Positions 21,193 to 27,572 of a stretch of DNA of 64,000 nt are shown in pieces. The stretch is from Chloroflexota bacterium. GTDB lineage: Bacteria; Chloroflexota; UBA11872; VXOZ01. The DNA lies in contig CATQHC010000006.1 of NCBI GenBank assembly GCA_958295775.1, forward strand, positions 1-64,000, read 5' to 3'. Made by a program: the position numbers and the translations under genes. The first letter of the stretch is position 1, and every line of letters begins with the position of its first letter. The notes under the pieces are model-generated. The model made no database searches. It saw only the letters and a program-made list of their open reading frames with translations, and was not told the origin of the DNA.

Positions 21193-21708
21193 ATGGGTAT
21201 GGAGACAGCCACGATGAATATTGTGCAATTCCTCAACCAGTACTCATTTCTCCTCGTCTCTCTCTTTGTGTTGTTCGGCAGCGTCGTGGCGGCCGCTGCA
21301 TGGTTTCCAGGTCTCGTGGGCTTGCTCATCGTCTTGGTCGTGTCGCTTGGTCTCGTCGCGGTAGAGTCGGTTTTTCAGTATCGAGATCCAGGGATTCCCG
21401 CCGGCAAAGGGCCGGACGCGCTGATTGGCAAAGGGCTGCCGGTTCTGGTCGCCATTTATTCAAAATTCTGAGCGGGCTGCCTTCTGGCCAATCCCATCGT
21501 CGATGGAATCGAACGCGACCTTGGCGCAACTGCCAAGGTCTTCCGGCTGAACCGGCACTCGCCGACCGGCAACGCATTCGCCGCCCGCCTTGGCTTACGC
21601 ATGGTACCGAGTTTCGCGGTCTTTGACGGCCAAGGCGAAGAGCGCCTGCGAAGAGACGGTAAGGTAATCAACCGGCAGACTGTGCTGAATGCGCTAGAGC
21701 ACGAGTAA
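21193..21708 (+). CDS. Membrane-anchored thioredoxin-fold selenoprotein (predicted, in-frame TGA = Sec)
   Basis: Standard translation stops at TGA 21469-21471, but the same frame continues for 78 sense codons to TAA 21706-21708. The joined 171-residue product is a thioredoxin fold. It has two N-terminal membrane helices (about residues 16-60), then PVLVAIYSKF-U-AGC with Sec93-x-x-Cys96 in place of CxxC. The beta strand KVFRLN and the cis-proline loop RMVPS (Pro139) followed by FAVFDGQGEE complete the fold. A paralog 260 bases downstream has TGA at the same site. TGA is an ordinary stop in neighbouring genes, so general reassignment is unlikely. The true start may be ATG 21214 (GGAG nine bases upstream). 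It is likely a redox protein at the membrane. No selABCD genes are in this window. Confidence 0.75.
21472..21510 (+). promoter_or_regulatory. Candidate SECIS hairpins downstream of TGA
   Basis: Bacterial SECIS elements lie in the coding sequence just after the TGA. Two foldable stretches are seen: GCC-TTCT-GGC at 21479-21488 flanked by GGG/CCC, and CCATC-GTC-GATGG starting about 22 bases after the TGA. The second corresponds in position to a loop containing GGT in the paralog. Both are short and overlap conserved codons, so this is weak evidence alone. Confidence 0.35.
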
Positions 21709-21968: not shown

Positions 21969-22485
21969 TTGAGAATTCAATCTGGGCGGATTGACAACTT
22001 GCGGTTCGTCAACCGGTACTCTTACCTCCTTTTCGTGCTTTTCATCCTCCCTGCAAGCGCGGTGGCGGCCTACTTTTGGTTGCCGAGTCCTGCTGGCTTG
22101 GCGTTTGTGACGCTCCTTGGCGTTCTTCTTGTCGCCGTAGTGTCCGTCCTGCGCCATCGTGAAACAGTCCTCGCCGACACCGCGGCCTTGGACGGGCTCA
22201 TCGGTAAAGGTTCGCCGGTGCTGGTAGTCCTGTTCTCGCACTACTGAGCGAGAAGCCTTGCGGCACGCCCCACGGTCGATGGGATTGAGCGAGAATTCGG
22301 CGAGACTGCGCATATCGTGCGGCTCAAGCCAGCATACGCCCGTCGGGCGTTCATTCTCCGAACGTCTGGACATACGCGCGGTGCCCTCCCTTGTCGTCTA
22401 CAACGAAATGGGCGATGTGCAACAGCGGTTCATCGGCAGGATCCCCAACCCGCAGGAACTTGATGTCTCGCTGAAACAAGAATGA
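21969..22485 (+). pseudogene. Paralogous thioredoxin-fold selenoprotein gene, frameshifted
   Basis: This has the same architecture as the gene just upstream: two membrane helices (YSYLLFVLFILPASAVAAYF), then the stretch GKGSPVLVVLFSHY, then TGA at 22245-22247, then ARSLAARPTVDGIEREFGETA. The equivalent active site would be U-x-x-Ser, having lost the resolving cysteine. Near 22329 one extra base (a C) shifts the frame. The thioredoxin end resumes in the next frame as TPVGRSFSERLDIRAVPS and LVVYNEMGD, ending at TGA 22483-22485. The start would be TTG with no clear ribosome site. A sequencing error at 22329 cannot be excluded. If real, this is a decaying copy. Confidence 0.65.
22248..22290 (+). 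promoter_or_regulatory. Candidate SECIS hairpins in the paralog
   Basis: GCC-TTGC-GGC (22254-22263) is bracketed by GCG/CGC. A CCCA/TGGG stem (22269-22283) has a seven-base loop containing GGT 27 bases after the TGA, inside the distance range known for bacterial SECIS loops. Both occupy the same positions as in the upstream gene. Confidence 0.35.
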
Positions 22486-26468: not shown

Positions 26469-27572
26469 TTACTGCAAGACCGCACGAAGTTGCTTGGCGA
26501 CTATAGTATCCTCGCCGGGCTCCAGAGTCATGGGGCTGATCAAAATTCCAGCGTCGTTGAGCCGCACGTCGATGGCGGGTTCGCCTTGGCGCAAGGCGCG
26601 CGCAACGTCGGCGGCCCGCTCCGGGCCTGACCCCGGAAAGCTAATCTGCGCATGCGGCACGATATCCCAACTCGCGCCTTCATCTTTGCGCAGCACTTCG
26701 CCAGTCACCCCGTCGAGGCCGGCCACTGCCGCCGCCACTGTGCGCATCCGCTGCTCCCAACTGTCGAGTTCCGCCGCCTCGTCCTGCGCCAAGTAGATTT
26801 CCACCGCCGTGAGCAGACCCATGATTTCTTCCTTGCCCACCTTCATGCCTCTGCCCACCGCGCTCTGCGGACTACCGTTCAACCGGGCCGCTTCCACCAG
26901 ATCAGGCTTACCCAACACCAGCCCGGTCGCCTGCGGGCCGCGGATGCCCTTGCCGCCGCTGAAGACGACGAGGTCGGCGCCCAATCCCACAATTTCCTTG
27001 AGGTTCGCCCGCGGCGGGAGTTGCGCCGCCGCATCGACCATCACAGGTACGCCTCGTTCATGGGCGCCCGCGATCACGTCAATAAGCTGGGCCTTGGACT
27101 GCTTGCCGAGAAAGTGCACCATTGCCGCCGTACGTTCCGTGATACTGTCCACAAGGTCATTCGCGGTCACACGCTCCTTGGTGCCCGCCGGGGTCAGCGT
27201 GCCGCCGACGACCTTGATGCCCTGATGAATGTAGGTGTGTTCGTCCACGTAGCTGATCACGAACTCGTTCTTGCCGCCAGGAACCTCCGGCAACGCGCGG
27301 ATGCGGTCGATGTCAGTACCCGTCAAGCAAGCCGCGGCAGCGACTTGCATGCCGCTGGCAGCGCCGCACGAAATGAATGCAGCCGGCACGCCGATCATCT
27401 CAGCCAGCCACCTGCCCGCCTTTTCGTGGAGTTCGTCAAGCCCAACGAAGGTGCGGGCAGCCTGCGCCATCGCCTCCACCACCGGCGTGGGCATGAGGCT
27501 GCCGCCCAACGTTGTGACCGTGCCACTGGCGTTAATGAATGTGCCGACCTTCAGGTCTTCATAGGTGATCAT
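26469..27572 (-). CDS. SelA-like PLP-dependent enzyme
   Basis: A 367-residue fold-type I pyridoxal-phosphate enzyme of the SelA-like group. Evidence is the N-terminal INASGTVTTLGGS, the cofactor-binding FISCGAASGMQVAAAA, the aspartate in VMVDAAAQLPP and the likely Schiff-base lysine in VVFSGGKGIRGPQATG. It is shorter than selenocysteine synthase SelA (about 450-460 residues) and lacks its N-terminal domain. The better match is therefore the group containing D-glucosaminate-6-phosphate ammonia lyase and related beta-eliminating enzymes. It stands alone, with no other selenium gene beside it. Confidence 0.85.
   Translation of the reverse strand: MITYEDLKVGTFINASGTVTTLGGSLMPTPVVEAMAQAARTFVGLDELHEKAGRWLAEMIGVPAAFISCGAASGMQVAAAACLTGTDIDRIRALPEVPGGKNEFVISYVDEHTYIHQGIKVVGGTLTPAGTKERVTANDLVDSITERTAAMVHFLGKQSKAQLIDVIAGAHERGVPVMVDAAAQLPPRANLKEIVGLGADLVVFSGGKGIRGPQATGLVLGKPDLVEAARLNGSPQSAVGRGMKVGKEEIMGLLTAVEIYLAQDEAAELDSWEQRMRTVAAAVAGLDGVTGEVLRKDEGASWDIVPHAQISFPGSGPERAADVARALRQGEPAIDVRLNDAGILISPMTLEPGEDTIVAKQLRAVLQ

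Follow-up and report, generated by a model that had tools for sequence, protein, structure and literature searches.

In a 64,000-nucleotide window from a Chloroflexota genome (contig CATQHC010000006.1; the window is the whole stretch of DNA that was analyzed), the reading frame for a thioredoxin-like protein is interrupted by a TGA codon (positions 21469-21471), which raises the question whether this codon is a stop or is decoded as selenocysteine, as proposed in the first-pass annotation of the locus. Comparison of the sequences across the phylum indicates that selenocysteine decoding at this UGA, in a predicted membrane thioredoxin-like protein, is highly probable (about 95%), which is as strong a case as comparative genomics can make. 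The protein itself, the signal that would recode the UGA and a tandem paralog of the gene are considered below.

Gene structure, fold and predicted topology

The gene in question, hereinafter copy A, occupies positions 21214-21708 of the forward strand, encodes a predicted membrane-anchored thioredoxin-like selenoprotein of 164 amino acids and has orthologs in five genomes of the same genus. The sequence around the interruption reads ...YSKF-TGA-AGCLLANPIVDG... and continues for 78 stop-free codons up to the TAA at 21706-21708, which confirms both the single interrupted frame and its long open continuation reported in the first-pass annotation. The redox motif is SKF-TGA-AGC, that is, U-A-G-C, in which the TGA corresponds to residue 86 (counted from ATG 21214; 93 if counted from ATG 21193) and the TGC codon at 21478-21480 encodes the resolving cysteine of the UxxC motif, the sole cysteine of copy A. 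The start had originally been placed at ATG 21193, which lies outside the conserved part of the gene; ATG 21214 is the more likely start, considering the GGAG about 10 nt upstream of it and the same-genus orthologs that begin at the equivalent of a second alternative start, GTG 21223.

The AlphaFold2 model of copy A (45 sequences; pLDDT 93, pTM 0.84) combines two long hydrophobic helices with a thioredoxin fold. The model and the hydropathy profile agree on two predicted membrane helices, residues 11-30 (21244-21303, forward strand) and 34-53 (21313-21372, forward strand), and the active-site motif is located just before the helix comprising residues 87-103, with the proline loop opposite; Pro132 is invariant. 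A Foldseek search initiated with this model retrieved bacterial and chloroplast thioredoxins, many of them with a TM-score to the target of approximately 0.7-0.8. Thus, the plan that had been read from the translation, namely two membrane helices and a thioredoxin domain with a proline loop, is borne out by both the model and the structure search.

The thioredoxin domain of copy A probably faces the outside of the cell. Beyond the genus to which the window belongs, the loop between the two helices is positively charged (a mean of 2.1 Lys/Arg and 0.15 Asp/Glu), and relatives with a single helix are mostly positive on the N-terminal side and negative on the C-terminal side of it; this charge bias would place the domain on the external side in the family beyond the genus. 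Within the genus, charge favors neither side: the loop of copy A is uncharged and the segment following the second helix contains arginines as well as acidic residues. These features could also fit a selenoprotein with a cytoplasmic domain and a general thioredoxin role, an alternative that concerns the placement of the domain and not the decoding, and that we consider rather unlikely. It draws further on the genomic context of certain one-helix relatives: a thioredoxin gene is located just upstream of the family gene in some of them, and a thioredoxin reductase-like gene (named from its sequence, with no scan) is found near the family gene in some. Given these neighbors, electrons may come from thioredoxin. 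Both the positive loop outside the genus and the charge pattern of the one-helix relatives argue against the cytoplasmic placement.

With the domain outside and the protein anchored in the membrane by its two N-terminal helices, copy A would serve as a rapid reductase of the thiol-disulfide (or selenenylsulfide) type, with envelope proteins or oxidized thiols as its substrates, a role that we favor with some reservation. In such a cycle, the selenocysteine, inserted at the nucleophilic position of the thioredoxin-type UxxC site, would attack the substrate, the resolving cysteine would release it, and a thioredoxin-type donor would re-reduce the pair. The neighbors of copy A in the window, a Dpp transporter and an epimerase-like gene, do not point to a substrate, and the analysis of gene neighborhoods in the genus yielded no substrate clue. 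In a group of Anaerolineales (L085, L093, L130 and about 20 other loci), a methyltransferase-like gene begins at or near the end of the family gene, and a divergently oriented EF-G-like gene is located upstream of it at the same loci.

Evidence on the decoding of the UGA

Decoding of UGA 21469-21471 by SelB and Sec-tRNA(UCA) would be directed by a putative bacterial SECIS hairpin at 21493-21507 (forward strand), the loop of which, GUC (21499-21501), is located 27 nt after the UGA. With this spacing and a 3-nt loop that starts with G followed by U, the hairpin falls within the bacterial SECIS model given in the available part of a 2026 review (a stem of 4-16 bp, a loop of 3-9 nt with G within its first two positions, and a distance of 16-37 nt to the UGA; PMC13188914). 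With the T of TGA numbered 1, the family consensus is CCC[A/G]TC-GTN-GA[T/C]GGG at positions 25-39; five continuous pairs are formed in copy A and six to eight in much of the family. RNAalifold applied to the whole alignment kept only four of the hairpin pairs, and the energy of the copy A hairpin, when folded alone, is no better than that of shuffled sequences (z -0.36). Because energy folding of this single hairpin is not significant, we relied on comparative tests.

The variation is largely confined to pair 28/36, which joins the first base of an Ile or Val codon to the synonymous third base of an Asp codon. Among 77 genes, this pair is A-U in 38, G-C in 37, G-U in one and A-C in one, so that the bases are paired in 76 of the 77, compared with a mean of 58 and a maximum of 66 in shuffles of codons within amino acids. 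Watson-Crick pairing is found in 74 of 76 genes (maximum of 62 in GC-stratified shuffles), and the mean GC content is equal (0.58) in the A-U and G-C classes. In a set of 62 sequences, the observed value was not reached by any of 500 shuffles, either for paired cells or for covariation, and slid hairpin registers drop to 23-47% paired. The two sites of the pair change 11 and 13 times on the tree and match each other in 81 of 83 genes; an independent-pairs test on starred branches yielded four pairs, nearly always of the same direction, which are too few for significance alone. Roughly 11-13 switches inferred for a single hairpin pair, in which one partner base is synonymous, make the evolutionary case for a bacterial SECIS element unusually clear. 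The first-pass annotation had suggested a search for such an element downstream of the TGA, and a SECIS-type hairpin with covariation is indeed present there.

It seems very improbable that the covarying hairpin merely reflects protein constraint (the peptide P-I/V-V-D-G) combined with base composition. This explanation could appeal to the conserved peptide that is encoded at the hairpin sites, to the weak energy of the hairpin in copy A itself and to the forms with cysteine in L102, L068 and L156, which retain a standard pair at 28/36. However, a base that determines Ile or Val pairs with a synonymous base of the Asp codon, neither the codon shuffles nor the GC-stratified ones attained the observed pairing, and the hairpin of the Cys homolog L121 is worn (four of six pairs) even though PVVDG is still encoded. 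Erosion of the hairpin is frequent among the Cys homologs, with two of six pairs formed in L102 and three in L067; L068 retains five.

Hardly tenable is the possibility that copy A is a pseudogene or a truncated gene, with the TGA a true stop and the frame beyond it a relic. The frameshift in the tandem copy B of this assembly (see below) suggests that decay may occur at the locus, but the covarying hairpin that follows the TGA, the conservation of the TGA and the selection acting downstream of it all speak against this possibility. Each of the five same-genus genomes contains an ortholog of copy A with exactly one TGA, at the same codon (49-60% identity). In a sample of 400 genomes drawn from Chloroflexota, the 50 matches above approximately 80 bits comprise 42 with the TGA and eight without a stop (manual count); retention of the TGA in orthologs was one of the outcomes that the first-pass annotation had proposed to look for. 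A scan of genome contigs with a single sequence (P0001) produced no confirmed relative, whereas an alignment query found 70 loci; these loci, detected in named public records with a peptide pattern that does not include the site, come mostly from MAGs of Chloroflexota, although a few carry the label of another phylum, and 68 of the 70 have TGA at the first redox position, with Cys in L102 and L121 (manual count). A plasmid search gave no match. The Cys homologs align at exactly the TGA codon, which supports the original assignment of the TGA to the site of the first cysteine of CxxC, and form scattered tips on a rapidly built tree with 93 rows (8 rows, 7 changes). The sequence after the TGA evolves under purifying selection: dN/dS is about 0.13-0.47 among copies A, and comparisons of copies B, which are farther apart, give a value of about 0.2.

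Two of the Cys forms on this tree, L165_1169 and L092_3573, are ordinary thioredoxin genes, judging by their WCGPC motif. A relative from Dehalococcoidia (L139, 4037-4048) has two TGAs three codons apart and reads UxxU (UVPU). In L146 and L152 (G066 and G259), the Asp codon of the hairpin is replaced by AAC (Asn) and the G-C pair at 28/36 is retained.

All the components of the selenocysteine machinery named for checking in the first-pass annotation (selA, selB, selC and selD) were identified in the host genome (9 contigs, 3.4 Mb, 95% complete): a tRNA-Sec with the anticodon UCA (67 bits), selB (359 bits, cut-off 242), selA (571 bits, cut-off 268) and selD (377 bits, cut-off 125). The selD gene (L021 1381-2700; G000:C9:447099-448028) has one in-frame UGA of its own, within CAGUAGK, after which comes a hairpin with the loop GUG, and thus represents another UGA-containing gene in the same genome. 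Across the family, tRNA-Sec is present in 34 of 38 TGA genomes and in all eight Cys genomes, and the four TGA-bearing genomes that show none are all represented by fragmented or incomplete assemblies; because most of the relatives, Cys-form genomes included, have tRNA-Sec, this co-occurrence is weak evidence. Within the 64-kb window, the Rfam search detected two tRNAs and nothing else. The window also encodes a SelA-like PLP enzyme (26469-27572, reverse strand; 40 bits to the selA model, under the cut-off of 268), the gene for which keeps its place close to the epimerase-like gene across the genus; the genuine selA is located on another contig.

That the TGA is read in some other way, through a change of the genetic code, leaky readthrough or a sequence error, is equally hard to maintain: nothing was found in its favor, and against it stand the facts that the genes just upstream of copy A, DppC, DppD and DppF (named by reading the open reading frames, with no family scan behind the names), terminate with TGA, which implies an unchanged code and upholds the earlier dismissal of a general reassignment, that the genome possesses the complete selenocysteine machinery, and that independent public records keep the TGA.

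The tandem paralog

Downstream of copy A, the forward strand contains a tandem paralog, copy B (21999-22485; the TTG start at 21999 is deduced from orthologs), with a UGA at the homologous codon (22245-22247) and AGC (22254-22256), a Ser codon, in place of that for the resolving cysteine, so that the motif is UxxS and the product has no cysteine. Its SECIS-like hairpin (22269-22283, forward strand) has a 4-bp stem, CCCA/UGGG, and a 7-nt loop, and is weak when folded alone. At 22326-22327 (forward strand), copy B has AA where the orthologs have a single A, a +1 frameshift that is either a true lesion or an assembly indel; because the frame beyond this site still resembles the orthologs, the lesion would have to be recent, if it is not an assembly indel. 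With its frame broken in the assembly, copy B is possibly no longer functional in this genome. The first-pass description of a paralog with TGA at the same site therefore holds with respect to the TGA; as a simple twin of copy A, the paralog fails on account of the Ser replacement and the extra A that breaks the frame.

Copy B with UGA and Ser is also encoded in G001, G003 and G005, and hence is kept in four species; from the aligned start onward, the proteins from these three genomes contain no cysteine. In G004, the epimerase-like gene begins about 160 nt after copy A, which leaves no room for copy B. The UxxS motif is found also in L127, L167, L168 and L169, and the tree requires three changes for UxxS, suggesting that this form arose again elsewhere in the phylum, beyond copy B.

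Copy B probably originated by tandem duplication within the genus, with subsequent loss of the resolving cysteine. Because selenocysteine would be the sole thiol- or selenol-bearing residue of the product, catalysis would follow a one-Sec mechanism, with either copy A or an external thiol acting as the resolving partner. Carried further, this leads to a speculative and, in our assessment, doubtful scheme in which the tandem pair of the genus forms a two-part selenium relay: the lone selenol of the cysteine-free UxxS protein would be resolved by its UxxC reductase partner, and copy B would perform one-Sec chemistry, for example by capturing peroxides or disulfides on the cell surface.

Relationship to known families and implications

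Copy A is only distantly related to characterized profiles. It scores 23.9 bits with TrxA (TIGR01068; curated cut-off 96.8), and its nearest Pfam match is Thioredoxin_2 (PF13098), at 19.5 bits, under the gathering score of 27; other members of the family match PF13098 with E-values down to 6.9e-10. No NCBIfam model, including those of selenoprotein families, scores above its cut-off for copy A. The selenoprotein TsoB (NF045694) is the only selenoprotein-named NCBIfam model that matches many members, weakly (best E-value of 9e-8, for one member), and it does not match copy A; TsoB, a rhodanese/DsbD fusion-like protein, shares a thioredoxin-like stretch with the family, whereas the family regions that were examined contain no rhodanese or DsbD part.

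Sec thioredoxins, a thiol:disulfide interchange selenoprotein and several thioredoxin-like UxxC families are already listed in the part of the 2026 review available to us (PMC13188914). The Sec thioredoxin (Trx, PF00085) of that list resembles copy A in its thioredoxin fold and in a UxxC active site with selenocysteine first; copy A differs in being membrane-anchored, in the low TrxA score given above, in the motif YSxFUxGC as opposed to a WCGPC-like one, and in having a UxxS paralog. The thiol:disulfide interchange selenoprotein (PF13098), likewise with a Thioredoxin_2-type domain and UxxC in the same list, is provisionally set apart by the low profile score of copy A. ResA, DsbE/CcmG and TlpA also combine an N-terminal membrane anchor with a reductase-type thioredoxin domain that is probably outside, but the group of copy A has two helices and Sec in place of Cys and matches these proteins weakly, in some members only; no cytochrome c maturation genes were seen adjoining copy A in the window. 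As for copy B, the accessible portion of the review records UxxS in arsenate reductase, AhpC/TSA-like and rhodanese (form 1) proteins, which share Ser at the fourth position with copy B and, judging by the family names in its table, have other domains; that portion of the table contains no UxxS thioredoxin, and 'Chloroflex' does not occur in the corresponding text. In a 2006 survey, the tally of selenoproteins for Chloroflexi was three (PMC1794560), and the main text of the deep-Sep paper mentions neither Chloroflexota nor thioredoxin.

Judging by NCBIfam and the literature, including the 2026 review as far as it was accessible, the family is apparently uncatalogued, with an earlier listing elsewhere possible (Deng et al. 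2026, a groundwater survey to which the review refers). The original designation as a new selenoprotein therefore stands with respect to these sources and does not stand for the kind of protein, Sec thioredoxin-like UxxC proteins being already known. Copy A is of a known type, the Sec thioredoxin-like oxidoreductase, and its membrane family, which includes an unusual UxxS variant, is apparently unlisted.

The genes of this family would be truncated at the UGA by standard gene callers. In this widespread bacterial family, which is found mainly in Chloroflexota, selenocysteine is the rule, as seen in the strong matches of the phylum sample, and cysteine is the exception, and the recurrence of UxxS alongside UxxC amounts to a natural experiment on the role of the resolving cysteine next to a selenol.
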